Made by a program: the position numbers and the translations under genes. A model generated the notes under the pieces. The model was not told where the DNA came from, searched no databases, and was given only the letters and a program-made list of their open reading frames with translations. 64,000 nt of DNA from NCBI RefSeq assembly GCF_016859285.1, contig NC_053408.1, positions 12,967,213 to 13,031,212 on the forward strand, read 5' to 3'. Each line of letters begins with the position of its first letter. Positions within the stretch are counted from its first letter, which is position 1. This document shows positions 4,586-63,252 of the stretch, in pieces. The stretch comes from Xiphias gladius. Its lineage: Eukaryota > Chordata > Actinopteri > Istiophoriformes > Xiphiidae.

Positions 4586-6937
4586 ATGTAAGTTCACACA
4601 AATAACTACAAACTACTATCACTGTTTTTTCCCCTGTATAAAGAGTAAAAAAACAACAATAAAACAAAGGTCATGTGGTCTTGCACAGATAGTCAGTGCT
4701 TGTAAACCAGAATAACAGTCTCTAAAAGCTACAAAACCATCAACTGTGGTGCTAATCAGGCACTGACAAACAGGCAAACACAAAGACATGATGTCAAAAC
4801 TCATTAAATGATACTCTTTGTGCACGATTTCTTGCAGTTAATACTGTGGTGATTCTTTGGGTTTTATTCTATTTAAAAGCTATATTCTTGACATTTTGTC
4901 ACATATCTTTACTGGTTTGGCTAGCAGATAACCAAGAATGCCATCAGTGAGTTTATTAGGAGATAAACGCTGAGGCTTATGGAGGATCATTTTAACTAGA
5001 ATTAGACTAAAATTAAAAAGGGAAATGAAAATTGAAGGAGGAAATGGAAAATAAACAAGTATTATGAACTTTCCTAACTCTGACAAATCCCATGTGGTTC
5101 TATTCCATATTTTTATTTTACATAATTCTGCAGAAACTATAGCGTGAATATACCTTTGACGCCGCATTGTATTGTATTGCATCATATAGCATCTGCATGA
5201 TTTGAATCACATAATTCTGCTTCTTTTCCATCTTTTTTTTTTTTTGATCACAGCTTCACTTTATCAAAGTCCTTCACTTTCCCAGCATTCCCCTCCTTGC
5301 TTATTGCATTGGACTGAACCATCTGAAAAACTGAAGAGGGGGTGATGATATTAAACTGCGGATACTATATGCTTCTGTGAATGTGATCTTCTTCTTTCAT
5401 GAATGTTATAATTCTATTATGGACTATGTTATAAAACCGGTTATCCATTCACTGTAAATTGTTATGCACAAAAATACACAATACAACAACATTTCCACCC
5501 ACAGTATATATATATATATTGTTTTGGGGTTCTTTTTAGTAATCACAGATGTTATTATTCAGCAATTTTTGTGATGTTCTTGATTTATTAGATGCACTGG
5601 TTGCTGGAACCTCTCCACTGGCCGAGCATAGGCTTCTTCTGGAGTAGTTGCTCTTAATGGAATTAAGAACAGCTTGTTAATCTCTGCCTAATCCTCACAT
5701 TAGTACCTGCACCGAGCAGTTTAATGTCAGTTTTCCAGTCTGAGCTCCGGCAATGAGTGTGGGGATTGTGGGAATGCACAAAAATTTGACTGGAGAAAAG
5801 ACCTGGAAAAGAAGTGTGTCTGGAGTTAGTTTTCCTGTTCTCTGTGTAGATGGGAGGAAAAGTTGTTTACCCACAAGATGTATGTTATAAAATAACCTCC
5901 CTTGTATTTCTGGAGCGCAGACTGATCCTGGTGCTGTCAACTGGAAGGAGAGATTCAGGTCCAAGCTTTGGAGAGACAGAATTCACATGAAGGAGTGTAG
6001 TTAGTATTTGGACATTCATTTGTAAAAGAAAACTAAGGTATTAGGTATGCAGGTTTATGGATAAGGCAAACTTCATTCTGTTCTCAAAACCTACCACTGC
6101 AGACGAAGAAGTTTTGTCCTACTTTTCCCTTCCCTATCTCTTCTTGTTGGACTCTCTTGTTCCCTGCAATCTTTTATTTAAAATACTGCGTGTGGAAAAC
6201 CAAACAAAGCATGGTTTTTACAGTGTACCTGTCTTCAATGTTTATTTTCTCTTAAGGTAAGAAGACCATTTTCTCCTGCAAGGTGTGTCGTTCACAGCAC
6301 TGACGTAGCCCTACTTATTTTCATTGCACTGAAGTATTTTGATTTTAAAAGACCATAAGAACAAACCAGAAGATAGTAGAATGATTATCTTTCCTTTCTA
6401 TTTCTGCTCCATGGTTGGAGACAAATCCTTCTGGCTGCGTGCAAATCAACCAGCTAGGCGCAGATGAAGATGGGCTTTGGGGAATTATCCACCCACACAC
6501 AACATTTCAAATTGAGATTTTAGAGATTTTTCAAGGCACTTTACAGATGATACATTCAAATGTCCCACTTACTCTCTGTCTCTCTCTTTTTAAAAAAAAT
6601 AAAAATATCATATCTGTGCTAGTCATTTGAAACAGCACCACTTCCTCTCCAGATGAGGAGGTGGGTTGGGTCACCCTTCTTTAAGGAGCTGTGCTCATCA
6701 TAAATACTTTTTAGAGTGGGTTTCAGTGAGGTTTAAATGTCCCATGGCCTACATTGATTTGAAGGCTTTTTATGGGGCACTATGGGCAGTTAAATGGAAT
6801 TTGGCCATCATTATTTTTTGTTTATTTTCACCTGTGCTTTTCTTACTGTGACAGGTCTTAAGTGGCAATCAGCAAATATTAAATGAGGACACAGAAATGA
6901 ACCTCTACGTGAAGCCGTCTTAAGATACATTTGCTAT
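4586..6937. other. gene-free intergenic stretch
   Basis: AT-rich sequence with a short TA repeat near 5506-5519 and scattered poly-T runs. I found no exon with both splice sites and a recognisable product. Confidence 0.5.
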
Positions 6938-28285: not shown

Positions 28286-31200
28286 ATGGCAGAAGCCCAC
28301 CAGGCGGTGGCCTTCCAGTTTACAGTCACCCCAGAGGGCATTGATCTGCAGCTGTCCCACCAGGCCCTCACTGAGATCTACCTCTCTGGTGTGCGCTCCT
28401 GGAAGAAGCGTATCATCAGACTCAAGGTATCTCCCCTCTTGTCACACCTGTTGTCTGTTTTGTTTGTTCATGCATACATGTGTTCATGTCTGCATCCCAA
28501 AACTTTCTGTAATAATCACAGCCATGTTTACATTGTACCTCTTCATTCTAGTTATTACTGCTTTTCCTCCTCTCAGCACTTAATCTGTGTCAGAGATAAA
28601 TGTTGAGGAATCTTTCACGTACACTGTCCTGTTGGCTTGTCCATATTGTGGTTAATGGTGTTGTTCATTAACTGCTCATTCTACTAATTTTTTTGAGGTT
28701 TTTTGCTTTCCTAGTCTGTAGGCGGTGAGTGCTAAAAACACAAACTTTTATTGGAGGATTCCTTTAAAACTAACCGGGGAAAATCAATTTTTAGTATCTT
28801 TGTACCTTGCAAAGAACATACAAATACAAATGAATCCATACAAATAACCTTAAGAATAAACTTAAACTTGGCAGAGTCATAAGGTTACTTAACCTTGTAC
28901 TTAAGTCAATGAAATATTGACAGGCTGAATGCAAGAGCTTTCATTTTTAGTTCTTGCCTTTAATTGTTGGCTGGACTGCAAGAGCGGGGCCCTGTAAATG
29001 GTAAAGTCTGTGATTGACTGACTGACTGGGTGCGTGATAAAGTTACACCATTGGTCAGCTGAAGGCCATGTGACTAAGTGCTGAAGTTACATCATTGGCA
29101 CTTGCTCTTTCAAAATAAATAGGTGCAAACAATCTCTATTGTGTCATCAGGAAGGTGTTTACTGGCACTGTTGCCATTTTAGCGTCTTTGTCGCTAGATT
29201 TACTGACTTTTCACACCCTTTTAGCGACGTTTGCTCACAAATGTACCTAGCAACAAATCCTGCAACGTTTTGGACAAACCTTAGCTAATTTCCGTAGAAG
29301 AGAGTCGTCAATATTGCCCAGCGAGCGCAAGGTCCGGCTTACCCTCCAGACCACACCTCTCTATGCGTCTCATTCTATATGACCGCACGGCAGCTGACAC
29401 ATGTGAATGAGCTTCTAACTTTCTCTGTGAGTGATAACTTTATAAGTAAATTTAGCCAAAATTAAAGCATTGCCGTTTACTGTAACTAATATGTATGGTG
29501 ATTTTGTCAGACGGCGTCATGGTTATAAAATCAGGATTTTAGCAGTGCAAAGTAGCAGACTGGAAATGGCTTGAAAGTGACTGCTGGTTAACATGTAGTC
29601 TTAATAGGCCGTGTTTCAGTCACTATTTTGTAGTTGTTCCATTGTCTGACAACAGAAACAGAAAAACATGTAAATGAGCACAGCTTTATGGGGAATACAG
29701 CTGTATTAAAATAGTGTATATGTGAGCACAGAGAGTAGGAAAGAAACAAACAGATAAAGGGCGGTCCAGCCACATTCTAGGTTTTGACCAAGTCTTGTTT
29801 TAATTGTAGTCTTTTAACAATGAAAATTAAATTGCTGTCATTTTATATCATATGTAATTATTAATTTGAAATGTTTTGTTTTCAGTTTTTTTGTTTTGTG
29901 TAATCCTGTATACTAGGATGCTCCTAAAAAATAAAAAGACTTGCAGCTTGCTCTGTGAGTTTTTTGTTATCATAATGTGTGGACTTAATATCAATCATTA
30001 ATGAATGTCACATATTATGACACAGTCTTAATATCTTTGTGTGATCTTCGTTGTCGTCAGTCATTCATTTACAGAAGCAGTGTTAATAAGAATTAAAGTA
30101 GTATTGCAAAAGCAACGTTACTGCTGCAAAAGCCTTAAACTAACGGTTAAATTACCAGAAATTTGTTGTGTAGATCAGGTTAATATCTGGACCTGTGCTA
30201 AATTCAGTTAAGACAATCAGAATAACGCATTAACATGTAAGTTATTACCTTAATCTAATCATAACTGAATTATCAGTGTGCATGTCAATGTACTGATTGT
30301 AAACAGGAAGAATGGGATTTAAAGTTAATCTCTCTTCTCTGACATTAACAGAACAGTGTGATAACAGGGGTATATCCTGCCAGCCCTTCCTCCTGGCTTT
30401 TTGTGGTCATAGCAATCCTGGCTACTATGTACACTCGCTCTGACCCCTCCATGGGCCTCATAGCCAAGATACAGGAGCACCTACCTGTCAGGTAACACAT
30501 CTCACGACTCCATGAAGTGGTAACAGTTAATGATAAAACTTATGATTAACCAGACAGCCCTGCAGACGCAAAATGTTCCTTTTCCCTGATTTTTCATTGT
30601 GTCACGGAGAGGACAGTATACAGTATATATAGGACATCTTTAGTGGGGTCTACATAGTCCTCACTCCTTCCCATTCTTCCTTTTTCATAGTCTTCTGTAA
30701 TATCTTTATCTTTGTCTAATTTTTTACAGTATGCTCCCCTTCTTGTTTCTTCCTCTCCCCTGCTGTTATCATATAAACTCGATTATGCATTCACTTTAAA
30801 GTGAAGGGATATTGCCCACAGCACTGATTTGACAAGATTAAAATACGACAAATTCGATTTAGATTTCCTAGCTTGTTATTACCATTGTTAAACAGCTAGC
30901 TCTTGTAATTAATATATTATTAATTAATACTTGTCGTTTCTCTTCCCACCCATCTTTATATTTGGTCTCTTTATGCCTGGTCATCTTCCCTCAATTTCTT
31001 TTTTTTTAATTCTGTCATTTGTTTCACTCACTGTTTTTTGTCTCCCTTTCCCCTTTATCCATCTATCCACCTTCTCCTACCATTCCCAGCCAGTCAATGA
31101 GTACCCAGTGTCAGGCAGTGGTGTCAGCAGTGCTCTTCAGCACCATGCTATGGCTCTTGCTCATCTTCACCATGCGCCTGTGCCTCAAGCAGCTCCTCTC

Positions 31201-34200
31201 CTACCACCGCTGGATGTTCGAGCAACACGGCAAGATGTCCAACACCACCAAAGTCTGGGTGGTCAGTGCTGTTCCACATTTTTTAAATACAACTTTCACT
31301 GTTCCTCAGTTCTGTAATCTTTGGTGTCTCTGAATAGTGACATGTTTATATGCTGTTGTTAAGTTCCAGTTCCAGTTAGCACAGTGTAATGTAATCAGAA
31401 GGCCATCAAATTTGTTTTTTTACTGTCATTTTTTTTTTTTTTTAAGAGTAGCAAAATAGTTTTTATGTCAGCATACTACAAAATGTTCATGTTTTATGTT
31501 CCAAGAAAGCACTGGTTACTTTACTTCTATAGTGAACGTTGTCCTCTTATTCAGAAAATGTTTCCAGTTACATAGTGAAGTGATAAATAGGTAAATAATA
31601 AGATTTTTTTTTTTCGCTGCACAGGGTATTTTTATATCACCTTATTTTTTTGAATAGATTTATTATTATATATGATATTCTGAAAAACTACTTGATGAAA
31701 AAATAAAACATAGATATGTTGTCACTTAAATATTTGAGTGTGTGTATATGCTTGTGTGTTTTTGCTAGGCCTTGGTGCGGATCTTTTCTGGCAGAAAGCC
31801 TCTACTCTACAGCTACCAGGGTTCGTTGCCAAACCTGCCTGTGCCCACCATTAAGGACACAGTCAAGAGGGTGAGACGTCACATGAAGCAGAGGATATGA
31901 CAACACGCTGATTACTGACCATAAAACAGATGGATCAGTTTCTCACATTCATCATTTTCTGCCTCTTTTGGACCAAATATCCTTTGCATTTGTAAATTTA
32001 TGAAACTGTTTTTATCCTGTTTCTAATTTTATTTCTGTAAAATAATGCTTGTTAATTTTCAGTTGAATTGTGGCTTAATTAGCATTTGTCTCTGGTTTAG
32101 TACTTGGAATCCGTGCGTCCCCTGATGGATGATATGCAGTATGAACGTATGACAAAGCTGGCCGCAGAGTTCGAGAGCAGCCTCGGTAACCGCCTGCAGT
32201 GGTACCTCAAACTCAAAGCTCTCTGGGCATCCAACTACGTAAGTGGTTGACCACAATACTCTGGTTAAGTGTGGCTACTTCAAACGTCACTTAAATGTCC
32301 AATTCAAAGCAGTCCAAAGGAAATTTAAAATTCCATTAAAATGCATATCTTTGTGAGGGTCTGTGGTTTTAGTTAATTCATCTTTTCTGCATAAGTAAGG
32401 GGTGTGACTGATAGTTGGCTGCAATATTAGCTTTCTCACTAAGATTTTTTGTGTGCATGTGTTTTAGGTTAGTGACTGGTGGGAGGAATACATCTACCTA
32501 CGGGGACGAAGCCCAATCATGGTCAACAGTAACTACTATGGCATGGTATGAAAACTTCTGTATATATTTCCTCTAAGAATTTTCCTTTCCACATGGTGTG
32601 GTCCTCACTTTGGATTACTTAAGCTGAATATATGATGTTATATGGCCTTTGAGATATTTAAGGATTCATTCTTTGAATCATTTGTGGGCAACTATTTGGC
32701 ATGAGAAGGGAAAAATAATGGATAATGTAATGTAATAATGGATTACTAGGCTAAGACAGGTACTTTTTGCTGCCATCAATTTATGTTCCTTTTCAACAAC
32801 ACTCTAGTTTATATCCACGTTCTGGAGCTACACAGGTGGTAATAATTAATCCCTTGATTTGAACATTGCTTTTACTGTATGTGATTTTTATAACATAACA
32901 TTAGCTTACCCCTCAAGCCTATTACATGTAAAATCGTTCCTGTGTTGACCAGAGCACATTAGCAATTCTATTTCTAATGCAGAACCTCTCCAAGGACTCA
33001 AACGTGATCTTTTAATCCCAGGTGTGCTCATGTGTTATTTTGTTTGGATAATATCGCTCGTTCATCCTCCTCCTGACTTCCTGTATGTGTTCGTTCTCTC
33101 CCCAGGACTTCTTGTACGTGACACCCACGCCCATCCAGGCGGCCAGGGCAGGCAACAGCATTCACGCATTCTTCCTGTACCGTCGCAAACTAAACAAAGA
33201 GGAGATTAAACCTGTGAGTTTAGCAACCAGTCATCCCTAGCTGCACAATATACATAGAGACATTCATTATTCATGTCTCTTTAGCTATGGCAACCGAAGA
33301 CTTGTTAATAAAATGTCTCAAATTTTGAGACATTGGGATATTTTGTTGTGGAAAAACAAAATATTATGTTCATGGGTAATATGAATATTACAGTAGACGT
33401 ATGAGGCCATACGTCTAATATGTGTTTTGATTGTGTTTTGACTATGAGATTAACATCGATCCATCAGTGTTTGTGTGTCTTGACTGTTTACGTTAGATTA
33501 TGTGAAGACATCTCCCTCATGGGCTCATACCATGCTCATTTCTCAATCCTTCCTTTTGTACTCTTTGTACCTCTCCTTCGATCGCTTGATTTCTTTTTAT
33601 TTACCTCCTCATTTTTCCTCTCGCTCTTTTAAAAAAAAAAAAAAAAAATCTCTTTCTTTTTGCTTGACTCTCCTTTTTTCTCCACTGCTCTCCTCTGTTC
33701 TTCTCCCTATGCCTTTGCCTTCATCTTCTCCTCTGTTTCCCAGAGTCGTATACCAGGCACTGTCATTCCTCTGTGTGCAGCTCAGTGTGAGAGGATATTC
33801 AACACCACACGCACTCCTGGAGAGGAGACCGGTAAAGAGACTGACATGTACACACACATAGACACACACTGTGGCAACGTGGTGTTTCTCACAGTGCTGA
33901 TATATGATACATAATATTGCCTGAACATGAGCAGTTAACGTCCAAAGGGAAGTGATGCTAACACACCACTGCTGCAGAAATGATGAGCGATACTGAAGGT
34001 GTCTGAACCCTCTGGAGTTTAAGCGTGGGATAGAAAATTGTGTGAAAGATAGTGTAAGTGTGTGTGTGCTCATCAGTGTGTATGGTCCCCTGAAGCAAGG
34101 CATCTGTGATTCACTGAGTCAGAATATGTCTGCTGTACAGCCCATCCTGTCATCTTCCATTTGTCTCATCTTACCTTCTGGTGTCATCTCAGGTCTGTCT

Positions 34201-37200
34201 GGGTTTCTGGGAAGGTTCTGTTGTAACTAATGTCTATTTTCTTCTGTCCACACATTTTTGTTTTCTTGTTTCTTTTCTCCCTGGTTTCTTTTCTATTTCA
34301 TCCCAAAACTCCTTTTTTTTTTTTTTTCTTTGATCCCTTTTGTTTCCTCTCTTTCTCGCCCATACTTTGTTTTTGTACTGGCCCATCCTTCTTTATCCTA
34401 CTCAGTGGTTGTTGAGGTCTGCAGTTCCTTGCTGTTCCTATCAGTTTGAGCGGATGTTTGACACTTGTCGAATCCCTGGAACTCTAACAGGTAGTATTTA
34501 TATTTTTACACAACTGGGCTAATCTAAGTTGTAGATGTCTAAATGTTAAAACCAGTTTGATGACAATACAAATGTGCTTAACATTGTTACAGTGTATAAT
34601 TAATAATTTAGGATAAGATACATCCCTGTCTCATACACAGTAAATGTTCATTGTCCATCATGTTAATGAGCCAACATCTTGATGGTCACCCTGTCAGTCA
34701 TTTCAAATCAGAAACCGCAAAGGAGAGAAACACAAATTGCATCCCTGCTCTCAGTATACAACACTGATCTTTACTCATGCAGGCCTCCTACAGTATGTTT
34801 TCATTCCTCCATTTGCTAAATAGGCCTTAAGCTATCCGTTTAGAGTCATCTCAGTCTTCCTTGTTGCACAAGGTAGGCTAGATTAATAACTGCTGGAGTT
34901 ATATTGTGAAGTTGAAGATGTTTCAATGTTCATCTGAATTCAGTGCAGTCAAGTGTGCGCCAGTGTGTCAAGTTTGTGCATATGGTTTGGGCCTTAATCG
35001 CTCAGGTTTGTTGTCTTTTTGGTAGAGTGGAGTCAGATCACACAACCAACATCCTTCCCATGTCACTCCACAAAACATTTGTCCACTTCTTTCTGGCAAA
35101 TGATGCTGAATATTTTAACAGGGTGGGTCAGGGATGTTGTGAAAATATCTCAGGTGTCTACCTGTGTGGTTGAAATTGTTGTTTGTCTACCTTTACCTAG
35201 TGGAAAGTGGTAAAGAAGTGTTCCTGTTTTCCAAAAATGTTTATATTCAAACGTATTTTATTTGGAGCTGCCCAGAGCAATACATTTTTCTGTATGAGGC
35301 CAGTAAGTAACTACACCAGAGCAAGAGGAGGGTTAAGTACCTCACTCAAGGGGACTGCAACTGTAGTCAGTAAGCGAAGTTAAACTGTTGCTGGTTCCCT
35401 GATTCTGACGGTTAAGCGGACAGCCTTGTGGTCGCATAATATTACAGGCAAAAGTATAGACTTGTTGTCAAAGTACTTAGATTTTAGTTTAAAAATATAT
35501 TTAGAATATTTTTTTGCTATATAATTTTATCCAATTAATGTCACAAGGGCATGTTGCAGAGTCAGTTGCTGTGTGCATCCCAACTAAAACTAAATTAAGG
35601 GTAAAATTTTTGAAAATGAATGCAGTCCTATAGGTAAATGACATGAATGTGAGAAAAATCCATGGCAGTAGGGTAGACAAAATGATGAGGTTCTGAATAA
35701 ATCTCAGCTAGAGGCACATCTAAATCCCTAAATTAAGTGCATCATCTATGATGTATTTTTGTTTCCATGACATGGTCTTGTTTTGAACTTCACCACCATC
35801 TACTCTAAATTGCAGAAATTCACACCAAATTTGGGCTTTTGACTCAATAACAAAATATTTACTTTGCTCTCAGCTTTTTTCCTACTTTCTTTTATATATC
35901 CGAAGATACTGTACAACATTGGCAGGACAGTGACTACATAGTGGTATACCACAGGGGTCGCTACTTTCGTCTGAGGGTGTACCAGGCAGGCAGACTCCTT
36001 TCCCCTAGGGAGATTGAATTCCAGATTCAGAGGATTCTTGACGACCCTTCACCTCCATCCAAAGGAGAGGCCAAACTCGGTGCCCTGACTGCTGGAGACA
36101 GGTCAGCTTGACAAGCCTCCAGTGTCTAAATCACATGGACCATACAGCACACTACATCCTTAATATAATCTCACCAATTTCCTCTGAAATGTTTCCCAGA
36201 ATTCCTTGGGCAAAAGCCAGGATGAAGTATTTCAGCAGTGGGGTCAATAAACGCTCTCTGGACTGCATTGAGAGAGCTGCCTTCTTTGTGACCCTGGATG
36301 ATGATGAACAGGGCATGTTGGGAGATGACCCTGTGGCCAGTTTAGATTGCTATGCCAAGTCCTTGTTGCATGGGAAATGTTATGACAGGTAATTTTTCAC
36401 TAAACTGATTACTGCCTTGTGAACTAATACGCTAACTCGTTTTTCCTGCTATGTTGTTGAATTGCTGGAATTTTCCATATAGCATTCAGACATTATCTTG
36501 GGTCGTCATGCAGGTGGTTTGACAAGTCCTTCTCAGTTGTTTACTACAAGAATGGAAAGAATGGCATAAATGGAGAGCACTCGTGGGCTGACGCACCAGT
36601 GTTAGCACACTTATGGGAGGTAAAGAGAATGAAAGAAAAGTATGTTGCACACTGTTGTCATCTGGCCCTGAGAAGAGGCTGTCACTTTTAATTGTTTTTT
36701 TAATTGTCTTTTCAGTACACCCTGGCCATCGACAGTTTCCAGCTGGGTTACAATACAGAGGGTCACTGCAAAGGAGACGTGGATTCATCACTACCACAAC
36801 CACAGAAGCTGAACTGGGAAATCCCTCCAGAAGTTAGTCATCTGTTCACACAGTATCCTTAAATCCTTTTCTTCTTTAGCTAAAGAACACAGGTTCTTGC
36901 TCCCCTGTCAACAACAATGCAAATTGACCTTTAATACATGCATCAAGAAGTCTGTTTTGAAATAATGCATGTACTGTAAACATCATAATTTATATTATGC
37001 TTATAGTGAACCTATAAGATCACAATTACTCCAAATTAAATTATTCCAATTTTAAGTAGGCACTGTAGCATGCAGACATTTTATTTTAATTTTGTCTTTC
37101 AAAGCATCACCAGATGATGCTGATATCACCAAAAATATAGCAGCAAGCAACATGTATCATTAGAATGGATGGTTTAGCAGATTTATTTGCATAATGACAA

Positions 37201-39748
37201 ACCTAGAAGTTATATATAGTAACGGTGTCAAAATAGTAAAGAATCCAAAACAGTAAGCTTTTTAATTAAAAAAAAGCAACAAAAAAGAAAACATCAAAAA
37301 CATACTATTTTTAAATACTACACCCATAGTAGGCTGGTAGCCTACTTTAGCATGAATAGCGGAAGCAGGAGGAAAGAAGTAGATTGGTTGAAAGAAAAAA
37401 AGAAAAGAAAAAAAAAAGAAACTATTTCTTGCAGTTACTTCCTGGGGTTTCATCTTGTTGCCTGGCACCCTACAGTAATGACAACACTCCAGCTTAGCTA
37501 GCTTCATATTAAGCATATAAACATGAGTTGTGTAGATCTTCTCATCCAACCCTTAGCAAGAAAGCAAATAAGCATAATTGCAAAAAATGTCTAAAAAAAA
37601 GTTTATTTAAGGTTTCAGTTGTACGCATAGTGCCATGCATTGTTGTTTTTGCAACCTGTCAATATGTCATTGACAGGTTGTTCATTTTGAAAATGACCAC
37701 ATGGGATGAAAAGACAAGAATGTAGCCAGTTGATACATATATTACTTGTTCAAATTAATGTGACATATAAAACGTATCTGAAACAATATGGAAGTATGGG
37801 TTATTTTTTTAAACCACAGTTGCAATTGTTATACAATCTCATCTTGCTGATGTTAACCATTTGGATATGTCTGTCTCAGTGTGAGGAGCAGATCTCCCAG
37901 TCCTTGGCAGTGGCCCAGGCCCTGGCTGATGATGTGGACTTCCACGTTTTCTCCTTCCAAGACTTTGGCAAAGGAAAGGTCAAGAAGTGTCGAGTCAGCC
38001 CAGATGCCTTCATTCAAATGGCTCTTCAGCTGGCCTACTACAGGGTGAGCCTCTCTGAAGTAGAAGAGATGTACAAACATACACTTACATAATCAACACA
38101 AGGGCAGTCTGTTGTTTGTAGTCCAGGTCACTGGATCTGAAGACAGTATTATCAGTATAATCTGTTGCATGTGAGTTTTGTTTCTGCGTTCCAGGACCGG
38201 GGCACATTCTGTCTGACGTACGAAGCTTCCATGACACGTTTGTTCAGGGAGGGCCGGACCGAGACTGTTCGCTCCTGTACCAGTGAGAGTAGTGCCTTCG
38301 TCCAAGCTCTGGAGGGTGGAGAGGTGAGACCAGTGAAACTGTCTCTTTATTTTCATCATTTTTGTACAGTGTTTGAGTACATTTTGGGTGGAGTATATAA
38401 CAGTTACTACAAAGGGGATAATTTCATGTTCTCTTATGAAAATACGCCTGCATTACTAATGATGATGTCTCATTACTATTTTCCTCACATAAATCATAGT
38501 GTCTATTTTTAATGTGTGCTATGCAAAGCAGTCATGCCGCTCATGCCATTCTCCACCAGGCAGCAGATGTGTGCAGGCGTTTGTTCCGTGCAGCGTCAGA
38601 AAAGCACCAGAATCTATACCGCATGGCCATGACTGGAGCTGGCATCGACAGACACCTCTTTTGCCTCTACGTGGTTTCCAAATACCTCGGAGTGGAGTCT
38701 CCTTTCTTGAAAGAGGTTTATTTCTTCCCTTTGTCACTTTAATCAGATAAATAATATCAGTCCAGTTCAGTGCGAGTATTTATTTCTTTAGTAGAACCAA
38801 TAAAGCATTGACTTCAGCAAACTGATGTTTTGGCTTCTTGTGGGTGTTTCAGGTGTTGTCTGAGCCCTGGCGGCTGTCCACCAGTCAGACTCCAGTCCAG
38901 CAGGTGGAGCTTTTTGACATGGTCAATCACCCAGAGTACATCTCCTGTGGTGGCGGCTTTGGTCCGGTCAGTGTAATGCTACAGTTTAATTATATTAGTT
39001 TTGTGTATGTACTCACATATTCATTTTTCATCATACAGTACCTTTGCCATTAGTGGAGACTCTTTCAGTCTTTCTTTGCAATGGAAACAACCCCTCTTAA
39101 TGGCTCCACAGAGTCTGAAAATTACCATACCATTCAATACTTTCTGCAGTCTTGACACAGGGGCTTCCTTTTTTTGGAAGTGTCTCTGTGTTCTGATATT
39201 CATAAAGCAGCCATGAGTATAAATATTGCTTGTATTTATTTCAGGTGGCTGATGATGGTTATGGGGTGTCCTACTACATTCTGGGAGACAGCATGATAAA
39301 CTTCCACATCTCGTGCAAGCACTCATGTCCAGACACTGTAAGTTAAAGGAAAGTAGTGATTTTACGCTGCATAAGGGAAGTGAACAAAATAAACTCCTCA
39401 ACCTGGGGTTGAGGCGTTAATAATAACTGCTAATAATACAAATAATAAATAAAAACAAACAAACAAACAAATAACAATAACATATTTTTAATTTGAGCAC
39501 AGCTTTTTTTTTTTTTTTTTAACCCTGTGCTTATAAAGTTATTTGGGCTTATCTTTATTATTATTTAGATCGATGAGAGCAGATGTGATGATATAAAACC
39601 TAATTTTGTGTCTCCCTTCAAGGATGCCCATAAGTTTGGTACACAGATCAGAAAAGCCCTGCACGACCTGATAAAGCTGCTGAGCCCCAACCAAAGAGAG
39701 CCCCACAAAACAGAAGAGAATCGGCCTGAGGTCAAGAAAGACCTGTAG
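28286..39748 (+). CDS. cpt1c: carnitine O-palmitoyltransferase 1, CPT1C-like
   Basis: Outer mitochondrial membrane (or ER, for mammalian CPT1C) enzyme that moves long-chain acyl groups from CoA to carnitine and senses malonyl-CoA. Coding exons: 28286-28426, 30352-30491, 31090-31261, 31769-31870, 32101-32238, 32468-32545, 33106-33213, 33744-33831 (9a) or 34406-34490 (9b), 35906-36101, 36200-36388, 36514-36619, 36716-36832, 37880-38044, 38195-38323, 38560-38715, 38853-38966, 39245-39337, 39623-39748. The product is 785 or 784 residues. It starts [16 protein letters not shown] as all CPT1s do and has two membrane segments (about 55-75 and 105-125). The catalytic His falls at residue 473 in GEHSWADAP, as in human CPT1[32 protein letters not shown] and LPQPQ are closer to CPT1C than to 1A or 1B. 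The tail after the last helix is short (ending PEVKKDL) and lacks the mammalian CPT1C extension. It could be annotated as cpt1a-like. Confidence 0.88.
33744..33831 (+). CDS. cpt1 exon 9a (alternative copy A)
   Basis: 88 bases, phase 0 in and phase 1 out, flanked by tttcccag and gtaaag. It encodes 29 residues ending with [15 protein letters not shown]. It resembles the CPT1A form [21 protein letters not shown] in both length and motif. Joining it to the next constitutive exon (35906) is in frame. Confidence 0.8.
34406..34490 (+). CDS. cpt1 exon 9b (alternative copy B)
   Basis: 85 bases, same phases as 9a, flanked by ctactcag and gtagta. It encodes 28 residues with [16 protein letters not shown], which resembles the CPT1B form CSYQMERMFNTTRIPG and has the CPT1B length. 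It is homologous to exon 9a and lies 574 bases downstream. It looks intact, with no stop in the reading frame. Confidence 0.75.
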
Positions 39749-46298: not shown

Positions 46299-49006
46299 AT
46301 GTCTGATTTCGAAGATCATGGGTGAGTCAATCCAGCCCTACCAGTTAACTTGTTATTTATTCTACATTCATAATACACAAGCTTATGTTCTAAAGCATGT
46401 CTGATGTGTTCTTTCAATTCTTTTTTTATTTAGAGGGCACCAGGAGGGTAAGGACACTCATCCATTGATTTAATAAATCTAGCAATTTTAATTGTCTCCC
46501 CTCGACTCAGTTGCTCTGCCACTCTTTCTTTCTCCAGAAGAAGATGAGGAGCAGGGAGAGGGAGGTGAGACTGTGATGCTGAACTGTGTTGATGTGTATG
46601 GACCTCCTCTTGGACATAACACACTCGGGAACAAGCTATGTCGGCAGCCTGTCATTGAGAGTGTCTGCACACTGCCAAATCCAAAATGTAAATGTTGATT
46701 TACATGGCGAAATGCATCCAGTGTTTACTTGTAGCGTTCGGTTATGTGTTTGTGGGCCCCTCATCAGTAGCATGGCAAAACACAAGAACTTAATGTTTCC
46801 CTTTTGTAGGGAAGTACACAAGTCATTGTTAAGAACAGTGGCTATGAACTGTGGGTTTTCTAATGTATTAAAACATTATTCAAATTTGCCTTATTTCTCT
46901 ATGACTGTTAGAGTTAAACTTGGATTAACCTTTTCTGATGTTTTAAAATCTAACTGTGGTTTTTAAAACACCAACTGATTCACTGTTTCATGGCTGCTCT
47001 GGCCGTCGTGTTGAAGAAGAACGCCCCAAATACAAGTAAGATTACATGAAAATACTAAACATCAAAAAAAATATTCTTAGATTTTACCACAAAATGCACT
47101 GCAAAAAAAGTGACTTATCTGATCAGTTAAAAAAAACAAAACATATGTTGATGTGCCTTTATGTTATTTTACAGGCCTGTGGTTACACAGCTTGCTGCCC
47201 CTAAAATCCCTGAGGGCGAGAGGGTCGACTTTGATGTATGTTCCTTCAAGACTGTTGTTAATCGAACAATTACACGATTAAAGCACCAACAATGGTATTA
47301 AATACTCATAGCCTGTGTATCCACTGGTTCCTGTTAGGATATCCATAGGAAAAGGATGGAGAAAGATCTTCTGGAGCTGCAGACTCTGATTGATGTCCAC
47401 TTTGAGCAGAGGAAGAAAGAGGAACAGGAGTTGATTGGGCTCAAAGAAAGGATTGTAATGCCCTTCCCATACTGTTTTTTCCCCCCATTTGTTCATCTGA
47501 AAGAGAGATTTGTCAGGATACAGTGACTATTCAGAATAATAGTGATTAATGAGCCATGTGTAGGTGTCTAGCTGATGTGTTTTTTCTGTTGTAGGAGAGC
47601 CGGCGGGCGGAAAGAGCTGAGCAGCAGCGAGTGAGGGCTGAAAAAGAGCGAGACAGACAGACACGGATTGCGGTAATTAATGTTTAACATTGTGACGTAT
47701 GTTGTTTAATACATGCATGATAACAATCAACTCAAAGATCACAGTATTTTGACCCTACACACTCTAAAAGAGCAATTTAAGTAAAGGAAGATTTCTTCCA
47801 TAGGAGGAGAGGCAGAGGAAAGAGGATGAAGAGGCGAAAAAGAGAGCAGATGATGAGGCCAAGAAGAAGAAGGTGCTCTCTAACATGGGTGCTCACTTCG
47901 GAGGGTTCTTGGTCAAGGTCAGAATACTGTACTTGCAGGCAGACGTGTCACTGTACACTGCAAGTATGCGGAGTGCATATAATTTCTTGTGCCCTCTGAA
48001 AGAAGCACTCTACATGACAGTCAGCGCACGTGTGTGTGTGATCGTCCTGGAAAAAGATGTGTGTTTGTTTGCTGCAGGCAGAGCAGAGGCGAGGCAAAAG
48101 GCAAACTGCGAGGGAAATCAAAAAGAAGACTCTGGCAGAGAGACGCAAGCCACTGGCTATCGAGAACTTGAGAGAGGATGGCCTAAGGTCAGTGAAAGGT
48201 TAAAGATTTGGGTTAACCTTAAATAAGTTTTTTTTTCTTTTTTACATTTTAAACCAGTCCTATGTCGTAGGAAGGCCAGTTGGGCCAGCGTGGCACATAT
48301 AACTTGAAAATGCTGCAAAAAAGAGTAGCTAATCACATTTCATTAAGATTTTAGACGGTGTGTGTTTCTGTCTTTTCAAGTTGTTAATGCTGTTGTGATT
48401 TAGAGAGAGAGCCAAGGAGATGTGGGAATGGATCTACCAGCTGGAGTCAGAGAAATTTGACCTGACTGAGAAGATGAAGAGGCAGAAGTACGAGGTGAGC
48501 CAATCAGCTGAGAATATACAAAACTGGGATTTTAAAAATGGCTCATTTGTGAAGTCAGAATCTTTTTTTTTTTCTTTTTCAGATAAATGTTCTCCTGAAC
48601 AGAATCCAACATGCTCAGAAATTGTGAGTCAATCTGCTCGTCTCAGTGTATCATGACACAAGACCCACACTACAAAAAAGAAAAAGCAGAGCATTGCGGA
48701 GAATTACTTTGCATCAGCTATGCAGATATACCATAGATGGATGGCAGCCAACATCTGCAAAGTCACATGTGCAAAGGAAAAGCCAAACTCAGATCTTTTT
48801 AACATTTACCACTTTATTTACAGGATGCACTTGTCTAAAATATTTACATATGGTAATAGAGGAGAAAGGGAACTTCCCTTTTTATCCCCAGTGAGTCACA
48901 CTTGTTGGTCATTTCTGTGAGCAATTGTTCATAATTTACAATTTTCCTGTCTCATTGCAGCAAAAAGGGCCATGGAAAGGGGAAAGTGGGAGGACGCTGG
49001 AAGTGA
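46299..49006 (+). CDS. tnnt1: troponin T type 1 (slow skeletal)
   Basis: Thin-filament protein that anchors the troponin complex to tropomyosin and passes on the calcium signal in slow muscle. Twelve coding exons (46299-46321, 46434-46447, 46538-46564, 47017-47035, 47175-47235, 47338-47454, 47595-47672, 47804-47917, 48078-48187, 48404-48494, 48583-48623, 48961-49006) give 246 residues. The N-terminus is short and acidic ([12 protein letters not shown]). The core has the tropomyosin-binding [20 protein letters not shown], then a highly charged coiled coil, [14 protein letters not shown], the heptad region [22 protein letters not shown], and the family-typical end [10 protein letters not shown]. 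The [15 protein letters not shown] segment and the lack of the cardiac N-terminal extension favour TNNT1 over TNNT2 or TNNT3. The tiny 14-27 base exons near the 5' end are of the kind that is alternatively spliced in this family. The start lies 7 bases into the exon. Confidence 0.93.
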
Positions 49007-49491: not shown

Positions 49492-52400
49492 CTACTTCTT
49501 CTGTCGTATGAAAACAGCATGGACGTCATCACTCTTCCCCTCACGCCATGGTTCAAATCCAGCCTCTACAGCGATGCTCACCGCTTTCTTTGCAAAGCCT
49601 GCTTCTTGCTCTTTGTTCAGATCCAAAATGTACCTTGGATATACAGTGACACACAGATGCAACTTAATTGCGAAGATGCCAATCACAGCCATTATTAACT
49701 TTCAAAAATAGTCCTGATCATTGAACTTAAATTTGGGATATGTAGCAAACACTAAATATCTGATACACAAAAGAAAATTACTTGGCAGAGTCACTGTACT
49801 CTTGGTGACTGTACTGTCACCATGGTAACAAGCCCTGTTACTATAAAAACCCTCACTTGGCCAACTCCATGACAACCACAGCGTCTGGTGCTGCAATCTG
49901 TCTCATCGTCGGGCCCAACTGGTGCACGCAGCTTTACAGCATAGATGGATAGAGAAACAGAAACACAGAAATGAAACACGGTCAGCAGTCATATCAGTAG
50001 TCTGGATAGTGAAGGGATATTATTTTATCTTAAATTACTACTTGATGAAATATAAATATTTATTATTTAAAAGGATATTTGTAGTAATTAGGGAAATAAA
50101 AGCTCTCACCTGGTAGAGAAGTAAATGGTGTTGAAGAATTGGAAGTATTTCTGTTTTTCTGGCAGTTTGTAAAGTGAGTCCAAAGGCAGGAAGGTCACAG
50201 AGATCCCATTCAGATGCATCAAGTCTGAGGAGGATTTGAGAAAATTCAGTACTAAAACCATCAAGTTTCATACAGTTGGTGATTTCACTGCTGAACATCA
50301 AATCAGGCTTCACGAGTCTGGGAAGCGATCTACCATACACTGAAAAGCTTTAAGATCCAGTTCCAATTTTCATTTCTATCTAAACGTGCATTAAAACTCA
50401 CAGAAACAACGAATTATGCAACATAAACAAAATCAGCCTTTCACGTCAGTCTGAACCTTTTCCCTTGCTTTTGTCATTTTGCTACCTTGGTCCTAAAATG
50501 CACTATATTGCCAGTTATTTAAAGCCACAGGCCTGCTGGTGTTAATGGCCATTTACCATTAATGTTAACGGATATTTGGTCAATCTGTGTGAATGGCTCC
50601 TCTCCCTCTGCATCTGACTGAGAAGTAGAGGGGCAGCCCCGTCTGCTGGACAGGGATTGGAACAATGCCTGCACATTTGCAAAGGAGATATCCTGGGCTG
50701 TCTGTGGATGTGAGGAAAGGGAGGGAGGACAATAAAACATTCATTAATAAGGTATAATCAAACATATAATCCGTGCCATTACATATGTATATTTTACCTT
50801 GATATGTTGCCCATTCTGTGTCTTCATTAGGCTCTTGTCCTCGGTTTCAATGCCAAAGGAGAGGTAAGGACTGGATACTATGTCTCCCCAGTAACCCGTC
50901 ACAGCCACTTTGTTCCCTCTCTATCAACACATACACAAAGTTAAATTCTTTCAATCTATCATCTTCTTGCTGCATTGTATAGCATCTCGAAGCAGTTACA
51001 CTTACCTGACTGAATACTCTTAATGAGAGCAAACTTGGATTGGTTACTTGGTAGACACCTTCCCTCATTTCAAACGCCAAACCCCGTTCCCTCCATTGCA
51101 CATAATGTTGTTTGTTGATGACACCACACTGCCGAAAGAGAATTAGTACAGAATGTGCTTCCATCACTGTACAACATACTGTATAAGGGTCCAAATTACT
51201 GAAAAATTATCATTTCTGTGGGCAAATGTTTCTTATCAACAAATTTTGGCCGCATATTTTAATAGACAAACAAAGAAAAGTAAAAAAAAATTTAAAATAC
51301 CCCTTTCTCATGCAGTTTCATTGTAAGGTCCCAGTCGAAGCAGCCTTTCTTGGAGTCATAGCGCGCACCAAGGTGCTGCCTGACCCGATAATCCCAGGCT
51401 TTGGACATGAGGATAGGAACAGAACGCTCAGATGAAGATGATGAAGACTGAGGATTGTTCCACAATTTGAATATTCTGGCCAGCTCATCTCGCTCCTTGA
51501 ACTGTAGAAATATTCAAAGAGGATGAAATTAGAAGACTTTAACCAAATTTGTGGAGCAATTACACTGCAGCATTTGAGAAAAAAGATCAGTCACAAGGTC
51601 TTACAGAAATAAAGAATGATACGCTTGTTCAACAGATTACTGTACCTTGAGAAGAGTTGTGTTCAGACAGGGGTGTGTGGCCATCTCCAGTGTTTCGGTA
51701 ACACTTAGAGACAGTTGTGATGCTGCGCGTCTCAGTATTTCCTCTGTTTGACTGCGGATCTCACTGTTCCCAAACACCTCCAGGTAAACCTCTGTCTTCT
51801 CTGTGAATAAAAACCAGCACAAGACAACCTATGGGTTTAGGACACATCTAGGTTTTAAAGTTAATAATTTAGCAAAATCCCACCCACCATTAAGTCCCAT
51901 GCTTTCCTGGGGTATCAGTGCCAGGTAGAGGAGCAGCAGCTGTCTAGCCACCACCTCCATGCTGTTTTCTATGACCCACATCTGCAGGGGAGTAGAGAGG
52001 AGAAGTCTGCAGCTCACAGTGGAGCATACCAAAATGTTTTCAGGATTAATTAAGAGGCAGAGGCTCACATGAAGGCTTTCTTCATTCCGCAAACCAGCAA
52101 TCGTCTTCAAAATATGCCGTGGATCTCCACTGCCAACAAGTAAAATATTGACCTCCCCGTCATGTCTCACAGGACCTAGACAGAGAGAGACCATACAGTA
52201 GCATCAACACTGCTTTTTAAAAAAATTTGTCTGTAGCACTGAGTATCAAAAGTTGGTATTGAATGCGGTCAGATTTGTAGTCTTGTTTACTTATTAATAT
52301 GCAGATATTTAAATGAGATATATAGACCATAATTTTGCCAATTTCATGTTTTATTATTTAGGTAGTGTTCTTTTACAGCTGTTTGTATTTAGGAATCATG

Positions 52401-61861: not shown

Positions 61862-62904
61862 TTACAGAGTGTGTTTATCAAAGAGGTATTCTCCCAAAGG
61901 ACCATGTGTCTCAGACGCAGTGATGCGGGTCAGACTTCCAACGTAATCGCCCAGCTTCTTGATGGTGTCGTGGCTGTCGGGGAGGAAGTGCTGCTCGAGG
62001 AAGTCACACAGCTACAAAGAAGTAAAACGGAAAAAAGTGAGTAAGATGTGAAATAATTCTATAAAAAGGTGGTAAAATAGGTAAAAAATTAGGAAACAGT
62101 TAACATTTAATAGTATATTAAAGACCCCTGTGACCCCATCTGTGATATTGCTTAATACATACAGAACTCACACACAAAAAAGGTATTTTAATGTGCAACA
62201 GTGCAATAGTGTAACTGTTTTTACCATATTCATAAACTAAAAGATAAACAACAGCTTTAGAACAAGAAGCAGTTATGTCCAACAGTGCCAGACATACGTG
62301 AGGGTCAGTGTGGATGCTAGCTCTGCGGTGCACATCAAGAATACACGTGTTGAGGGACTTCTGGTAGTCGAGGGAAAAAGACATTGTGTCCAGACCACCT
62401 CTCCAGTCCTCTCTACTTGGTTTCTAGAACAAAAAGTTGATATTTATTTGTATCAACAAATATACCAATCTCAACAATAATGGCCTGATAATGCCACCTG
62501 TAACTGGACATTTTGGACTTACAGCAATAGTCTGAAGCAAAATTCGGCCTCCTCTCATGTTTTGATATTCCAGCAGCTTTTCAGCCTGTTCTCTCTCTTT
62601 CACTGAGCGCTCCAGGAAAAAACTGGAAAATTTTGGCAAGGCAACATCATCCCTGTCAAAATACATCCCCTAAAATAGTTGGGGGAAAAAAAAAAAACAA
62701 CAGGATTTTGGGATTACAGTGCAGACATGTGAGAAGAAAGATATCTAGCAATATACACGGTATAACAAATGCTACTAGTCATACAGCGACTAGAAATCGT
62801 ACCAGGGCAAGGTAGGTGTAGGATGCACCGAGCTTCAGGTTGATGAGTTTGTTAATGTCTCCCTCGGTCTCCGAATGGAGGTTCTGTTTGACCACAGACT
62901 GCAT
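61862..62904 (-). CDS. ferritin subunit lacking most ferroxidase residues (L-like)
   Basis: Four coding exons (62904-62803, 62669-62523, 62423-62298, 62011-61862) give 174 residues of a complete four-helix ferritin subunit, the building block of the 24-mer iron-storage shell. Family words include [22 protein letters not shown], split over two exons, then [25 protein letters not shown] and the end [10 protein letters not shown]. Set against human H-chain numbering, the iron-oxidation site is mostly lost: Glu27 is Lys, Glu61 is Lys, His65 is Gln, Glu107 is Gln and Gln141 is Ser. Tyr34 and Glu62 remain. This fits a non-catalytic, light-chain-like subunit that co-assembles with H chains. Exon borders match those of vertebrate ferritin genes. 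The start codon lies 2 bases after an acceptor (cttttag), so the 5' UTR must be in an upstream exon. No signal peptide is seen, so it should act in the cytosol. Confidence 0.9.
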
Positions 62905-63252
62905 TTCTAAAAGACAGAAACAGGCTGCAATCAACGTGACTGGTATTAGGGTAAACCAATGCCAGTTCAAGACCAAGCCACTACTTTTAACTTCAGACAG
63001 AAAAACAGTCCAGACGAAAAAGAAATCTTCCTTACCTTTCCTTCCTCAGACAACAGACTTAGCTAACAAACGCTTCTGTTCACTCGCCCTCTGAAGTTAG
63101 TAAAGTTCTGCACTTCTTTCCCAGCCTGCTATTAAGCAACCTATGTTTACCAGCTCCAGTAAAACATCAGCCAGACTACTGTCATTTGCGGTGAGGTGAG
63201 TTCAAGTGGGCTGTAACGTTTCCAGCCAGGTGCTGAGAAGAGGTCGCGCTAA

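Follow-up and report, generated by a model that had tools for sequence, protein, structure and literature searches.

Two mutually exclusive alternative exons are probably encoded by a cpt1c gene of the swordfish, Xiphias gladius, a member of the CPT1 family, whose enzymes are the malonyl-CoA-controlled gate of fat burning. The window, by which we mean the whole stretch of 64,000 nucleotides (nt) analyzed here (assembly GCF_016859285.1, contig NC_053408.1, positions 12,967,213 to 13,031,212 of the forward strand), contains the complete gene on its plus strand, with 18 coding exons in each mRNA form. Between exons 8 and 10 lie two adjacent homologous copies of one exon, 9a (copy A) and 9b (copy B), which have the same phases, and the reading frame is kept by exactly one of them. 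An initial annotation of this DNA, made from its letters alone, had proposed such a pair; coordinates, lengths, and phases were recomputed, and both exons were again found to be intact, homologous, and identical in phase (Table 1).

A form with 9a alone encodes a protein of 785 residues, and a form with 9b alone one of 784. When both exons are included, a stop is reached at codon 337, a TGA within 9b after 14 shifted codons; when both are skipped, a TAG follows after 11 codons, at codon 305. These counts bear out the earlier proposal that only one copy at a time gives a full protein. On this sequence evidence, a single gene probably provides the fish with two forms of the enzyme: splicing one copy at a time would swap a segment of 29 or 28 residues in the acyltransferase domain and leave the rest of the enzyme unchanged.

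Position and conservation of the swapped segment

The segment had been placed just before the catalytic region. More exactly, this segment, near the active site, lies inside the Pfam acyltransferase match, which spans residues 174-753 of the isoform-B protein, and holds Cys304, Thr314, and Arg316. Isoform A has 17 of the 18 landmark residues of human CPT1A at the same number, the catalytic His473 included and A275 being the exception, and residues can therefore be mapped directly to the human enzyme (site numbers from PMC10076611; here and below, papers are cited for what their openly accessible passages state). Eleven residues of the segment are invariant in all six copies found in the genome (see below), including the three named above, and window copy B keeps all 11. 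The human CPT1A-deficiency mutations C304W, T314I, and R316G fall at these three residues (PMC10076611). One otherwise invariant column is broken by window B (N to D) and likewise one by window A (M to I).

Between the two cpt1c genes of this genome, copy A differs at 9 of 29 third codon positions and at 3 of 58 first and second positions. This concentration of changes at third positions suggests selection on copy A; window B has no close partner, and selection was measured on A only.

A second exon pair in cpt1a and single copies in two sister genes

The arrangement predicted for the window gene recurs in the cpt1a gene of the fish, and the halves of the pair occur in its other two cpt1 genes. 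When the segment was used to search the full genome of 691 Mb, six places were returned at E values up to 10, all of them in four cpt1 genes; this was a first look with seven candidates, and the genome thus holds at least six copies and at least four genes. In cpt1a, an 88-nt exon is followed by one of 85 nt, with the same phases and frame logic as in the window cpt1c. Either copy gives a full protein (772 and 771 residues, respectively), inclusion of both leads to a stop at codon 359, and inclusion of none to a stop at codon 300. In a second cpt1c, on contig C3, the only copy is of 88 nt, and in cpt1b the only copy is of 85 nt.

Homology of the copies was supported by a leave-one-out scan of 846 translated pieces from both strands of the four gene regions, in which each of the six copies was recovered in its place by a profile of the other five. 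Window B scored 34.3 bits when left out (E = 4.6e-10) and the other five copies 50.4-58.1 bits, while the best unrelated stretches reached 3.3-5.3 bits. A tblastn comparison of A with B in the fetched cpt1 loci gave 46% identity over 24 residues (E about 5e-4); when the whole genome was searched with A as the query, window B appeared only at an E value of 2.2. The two window copies share 11 of 28 residues. By these measures B is clearly homologous to A yet distant from it, and the pair appears to be either old or fast-evolving. An assembly artifact or a recent duplication was rejected on account of the low identity and because the genome search listed each copy at a single place.

We also asked whether the C3 gene or cpt1b hides a second copy. 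A profile of all six copies, run over the four gene regions, found no seventh copy, and in neither gene was there a match above noise, the next best hit scoring 3.3 bits. The six copies score 59-67 bits in this profile by construction, and the cpt1b copy was reported twice from overlapping scan pieces. Another 16 coding exons, the last exon being left out, served as a control and were scanned on the strand of each gene with profiles built from these same exons. Each was found once per gene in all four genes (64/64), at 69-141 bits, and additional matches at E values up to 1 scored at most 10.7 bits. The best of these was a weak second match to exon 17 on the reverse complement of the cpt1b stretch (L011), at about position 6360.

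Origin of the exon pair

We regard it as likely, but not proven, that the pair predates the split of cpt1a, cpt1b, and cpt1c, as judged from sequence comparison. A single origin is indicated because the same exon out of 17 scanned is paired in both genes, in the same order and with the same lengths of 88 and 85 nt, and because the single copies in the other two genes have exactly these lengths. Furthermore, A and B of the window gene share fewer residues (11/28) than do copy A of cpt1c and copy A of cpt1a (16/29), which makes the cpt1c pair look at least as old as the gene split, unless B has sped up. Within cpt1a, the two copies are identical at 16 of 28 residues. Among the B copies, cpt1a and cpt1b share 18 of 28 residues, cpt1c and cpt1b 15, and cpt1c and cpt1a 14. 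The B copies of cpt1a and cpt1b have in common a Met after a conserved Pro, a position at which Leu is found in the three A copies and in six other acyltransferase genes of the genome (9/9). Five tree topologies were compared, three grouping the exons by copy type and two by gene. The best tree grouped them by type for protein (1.4 log units over the by-gene tree) and for codons (2.4 log units); the summed weights of the type trees were 0.73 for protein, 0.79 for codons, and 0.50 for DNA, figures that are favored by type trees being three of the five. Under an early origin, cpt1a and the window cpt1c would have kept both copies, the second cpt1c would have kept A, and cpt1b would have kept B.

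Alternatively, the exons may be real alternative exons that arose by separate, convergent duplications in cpt1a and cpt1c, with lengths that match by chance. We consider this possible but doubtful, and several results weigh for it or against a single origin. For DNA, the best tree groups the copies by gene (margin 0.4 log units), and none of the five topologies was excluded, the by-gene groupings having p values of 0.22 to 0.58 in the approximately unbiased test (p-AU). In four-copy quartets, informative sites supporting grouping by type, by gene, and crossed numbered 0, 0, and 1 for protein and 1, 4, and 4 for DNA. Window B has Cys, and not Met, after the conserved Pro; it is nearest in identity to cpt1a A; and its low left-out score allows that B has sped up. 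In addition, many human and fly orthologues have acquired tandem exon duplications independently (PMC9741552). However, separate duplications would have had to hit the same exon of 17 and arrive at the same order and lengths, which the lone copies of 88 and 85 nt also show, and they would leave the lower identity of A to B within cpt1c than of A to A between cpt1c and cpt1a to be accounted for.

The record of origin may also be blurred. The cpt1a A exon and the cpt1b B exon are identical at 13 of 18 comparable codons, whereas across the remaining exons of both genes the figure is 194 of 436. They lie 3 Mb apart on contig C8 in old paralogues, and gene conversion between them is possible; an exchange of this kind, if real, would obscure how the copies are related and so weaken the case for one origin.

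More tentatively, and with a confidence that falls just short of even, we suggest that a vertebrate CPT1 ancestor, prior to the two early genome duplications, already chose between A (29 residues) and B (28 residues), that this choice was later shared out among the genes, and that the insect pair described below may be the same switch. Mammalian CPT1A presumably carries the 29-residue version and CPT1B the 28-residue version. The initial annotation had taken copy A for the CPT1A version of the segment and copy B for the CPT1B version. By length this assignment stands (88 nt in the A copies of cpt1a and the C3 gene; 85 nt in cpt1b); by raw identity it does not, since window B is nearest to cpt1a A (17/28) and only then to cpt1b (15/28). 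A search for stray animal CPT1 in public collections gave 25 pattern stretches in genome_contigs and 31 in viral_contigs, none of which was confirmed.

Splicing signals and use of both copies

Long AG-free stretches mark distant branch points, and regulated exons often have long AG-free, pyrimidine-rich stretches before them. Those before 9a and 9b are the longest and second longest among the 69 introns of the four cpt1 genes, for which the median is 36 nt (Table 1). In the density of CU motifs, the regions before 9a and 9b rank 2 and 3 of 69, and the region before cpt1a B ranks 5. The B donors are weak in both paired genes, ranking 9 (window) and 11 of 70 from the weakest, whereas the donor of the single cpt1b B exon is ordinary (rank 55 of 70); it should be noted that the donor matrix was built from the same 70 sites that it ranks. 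In cpt1a, the A exon combines an acceptor among the weakest (3 of 69) with the strongest donor (70 of 70).

Mechanical causes of exclusion were considered and found no support. Steric exclusion would call for a very short intron, and the intron between the copies measures 574 nt in the window gene and 472 nt in cpt1a. Incompatibility of U2 and U12 sites does not apply, all six donors examined (three in each paired gene, following exon 8, A, and B) being U2-like. As for competing RNA pairing, the longest perfect complement was within the control range in five of six intron pairs; the sixth gave a 15-nt poly-A/poly-T match, a length reached in 0 of 40 controls, which is present in the window only and absent from cpt1a. 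The very short intron, mixed U2/U12 sites, or competing RNA pairing that would place a pair in the mechanically enforced sub-class were thus not found, and the pair is not assigned to it. Since no physical bar to the joining of 9a to 9b was found, exclusion would rest on regulation and on the decay of mRNA with a shifted frame. Before 9a there are 18 A in a row (33631-33648) and before 9b 15 T (34313-34327); these two runs, both of low complexity, could pair across 9a.

We propose that a splicing regulator acting on the pyrimidine-rich AG-free stretches, through PTB-like repression and distant branch points, may pick the exon by tissue or state. Double inclusion or skipping would place a stop many junctions before the end of the mRNA, which would then be removed by nonsense-mediated decay. 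The two isoforms may differ in substrate or malonyl-CoA behavior, after the example of insect CPT1.

Some of the splicing evidence weighs against regulated exclusion as a shared property of the pairs. The AG-free stretches of cpt1a are shorter, at 74 nt (rank 13) and 41 nt (rank 28), its A exon is poor in CU motifs (rank 35), and in the window gene itself an ordinary exon, exon 4, has an AG-free stretch of 188 nt (rank 3 of 69) in the intron at 30492-31089. Moreover, both measures, AG-free length and CU-motif density, were selected once the sequence had been inspected. The stretch in intron 30492-31089 may indicate that exon 4 is another regulated exon.

It is improbable, in our estimate, that only one copy is in use, with the other (B, most likely) a relic left open by chance. 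Such a relic would be consistent with the weak B donor (rank 9 of 70) and with B being the most diverged of the six copies, as seen in its left-out score of 34.3 bits and in its residues PCC, FDT, and GTLT. However, the pair looks old (11/28), yet the copy lost from the C3 gene has left no trace above noise, and the same arrangement is present in cpt1a. Furthermore, the 11 invariant codons have 22 first and second positions, and the chance that neutral change would have kept these is about 3e-4, a rough estimate that takes 9/29, the third-position difference between copies A of both cpt1c genes, as the neutral rate and assumes that B had these residues when the two cpt1c genes parted. It is more improbable still that the pair serves mainly as a switch of enzyme amount through decay of double-inclusion or skipping products: in each paired gene these products do contain early stops, but a single poison exon would suffice, and a second copy with 11 conserved residues, splice sites, and phase, in two genes, would be needless. 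Mutually exclusive use of 9a and 9b remains our preferred reading.

Comparison with known exon pairs

Two alternative CPT1 exons are likewise found in insects; Price et al. reportedly described in 2010 the exons 6A and 6B of Drosophila withered. The variable stretch of the fly enzyme has, we assume, 21 residues, as does the core of the swordfish segment, Pro302-Thr322, an agreement to be taken as a lead only. The alternative exons of insect CPT1 are accompanied by different kinetics and tissue use (PMC3793950, PMC7767417; reference entry PMC10352773). In insects, the pair lies in the only CPT1 gene of the animal, whereas in the swordfish it lies in two of four genes. The swordfish exons appear to be of a type known in insects, and what appears to be new is that two sister genes have the pair while each of the remaining two has one half of it.

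Exons 4a and 4b of vertebrate OGDH are likewise an ancient duplicated exon of a mitochondrial metabolic enzyme; they have a long pyrimidine tract and are mutually exclusive, the exclusion being enforced by distant branch points, and PTBP1 inhibits the inclusion of both (PMC7969005). The branch points of OGDH lie near the donor of the intervening intron (PMC7969005), whereas the branch-point-like site of cpt1c, a motif match only, lies 399 nt from the 9a donor. Blocking by closeness is therefore not expected in cpt1c. The exons 9/10 of PKM and 3a/3c of KHK are further pairs of homologous neighboring exons, and in human tandem-exon pairs homologous neighbors are likewise swapped with functional residues kept in both. 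CPT1 is absent from the main text of the paper on human tandem exons (PMC9741552).

The initial annotation knew of no report of such a pair in a vertebrate CPT1C-type gene, and we found no report of paired vertebrate CPT1 exons in the open literature (subscription papers and annotation records lay outside the search, and not every candidate paper was covered). Both exons may already figure in the RefSeq or Ensembl isoform models of fish cpt1 genes. The main text of the paper on the vertebrate Cpt1 family has no word starting with "splic" or "exon" (PMC4589379). In their accessible passages, papers on duck and Tibetan pig refer to several CPT1A isoforms or to alternative splicing of this gene but do not name the exon, a paper on cow reports CPT1A as differentially expressed, and one on cattle reports an alternative 5' splice site in CPT1B exon 7.

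Isoforms that differ only in a segment of 28-29 residues, with Cys304 to Arg316 within it, would offer a clean test of the role of this segment in substrate or inhibitor binding. If the pair is ancestral, alternative exons would have turned into separate genes, which would be a simple account of part of the difference between CPT1A and CPT1B; if, in addition, the mammalian lengths assumed above hold, part of the difference between the liver and muscle enzymes would be an old splicing choice that has been frozen. For the fish itself, measurements of "cpt1a" or "cpt1c" mRNA might sum two enzymes.

Identity of the four cpt1 genes

The isoform-B protein of the window gene matched the Pfam families CPT_N (1.5e-27) and Carn_acyltransf (1.6e-188). 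A troponin match (2.5e-7) and a DUF4471 match (1e-26), the latter presumably the DNAAF3 domain, lie downstream in the window (Table 1), and other neighbors include a synaptotagmin-like gene with a C2 domain and a protein kinase gene (BRSK-like by eye). The vertebrate Cpt1c locus is described as including Tnnt1 and Dnaaf3 (PMC4589379), and because matches to both families lie in the window, its cpt1 gene is taken as cpt1c (Cpt1a2), in agreement with the CPT1C-type gene of the initial annotation. The first 42-45 residues scored 71.0 bits against the human CPT1A peptide 2LE3 and 47.2 bits against the human CPT1C peptide 2M76, and thus the N-terminus of the window gene is not closer to mammalian CPT1C than to CPT1A, a closeness that is not a defining cpt1c feature. 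Mammalian Cpt1c is called rapidly evolving (PMC4589379), and a CPT1A-like N-terminus is therefore expected of a fish cpt1c.

The nearest relative of the window gene in the genome, on contig C3, is identical to it at 593 of 744 aligned residues, and troponin matches occur at C3:0.66 Mb; by these comparisons we take it as the second teleost cpt1c. Its last coding exon was not found by the exon model in the fetched stretch (L012-L015); it has either diverged or lies outside that stretch. We assign the gene at C8:14.54 Mb to cpt1b, since Chkb adjoins Cpt1b (PMC4589379) and choline kinase matches occur at C8:14.556-14.564 Mb, although the genome has several loci of this kind.

We take the gene at C8:11.57 Mb as cpt1a on the strength of its N-terminus, which matches 2LE3 best, the first 42 residues scoring 81.6 bits, against 61.9 bits for cpt1b and 71.0 bits for the window gene; 39 of these 42 residues are identical to the human peptide, as counted from the alignment. 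PF03638, which we take to be the family of the cpt1a neighbor Mtl5, had its sole listed match at C8:0.48 Mb, far from this gene.

Table 1 Coordinates of the features discussed; positions are those of the window unless a contig or fetched stretch is named.
Feature	Position	Strand	Remarks
cpt1c gene, coding part	28286..39748	+	ATG 28286 to TAG 39746-39748; computed exons and splice sites, open frame
cpt1c coding exons before the pair	28286-28426, 30352-30491, 31090-31261, 31769-31870, 32101-32238, 32468-32545, 33106-33213	+	
Exon 8	33106..33213	+	ends in phase 0
AG-free stretch before 9a	33508..33741	+	234 nt, 76% pyrimidine; last AG ends 33507; longest of 69 introns
Exon 9a (copy A)	33744..33831	+	88 nt = 29 codons + 1; phase 0 in, 1 out
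AG-free stretch before 9b	34215..34403	+	189 nt, 80% pyrimidine; last AG ends 34214; second of 69
Branch-point-like TAACTAAT	34224..34231	+	about 176 nt before 9b, 399 nt after 9a donor; motif match only
Exon 9b (copy B)	34406..34490	+	85 nt = 28 codons + 1; phase 0 in, 1 out; weak donor GTAGTA
Exon 10	35906..36101	+	accepts 9a or 9b in phase 1
cpt1c coding exons after the pair, first half	35906-36101, 36200-36388, 36514-36619, 36716-36832, 37880-38044	+	
cpt1c coding exons after the pair, rest	38195-38323, 38560-38715, 38853-38966, 39245-39337, 39623-39748	+	
Troponin match	47804-48223		2.5e-7
DUF4471 match	51295-51513		1e-26
cpt1a exon pair	L010 (C8:11571500-11581000) 1582-1669 and 1025-1109	minus	88 nt and 85 nt; exon prediction
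cpt1b single copy	L011:5341-5425	minus	85 nt

Elsewhere in the window, two single frames from 61865-63045 on the minus strand gave no Pfam match; the open frames of this region look ferritin-like by eye.

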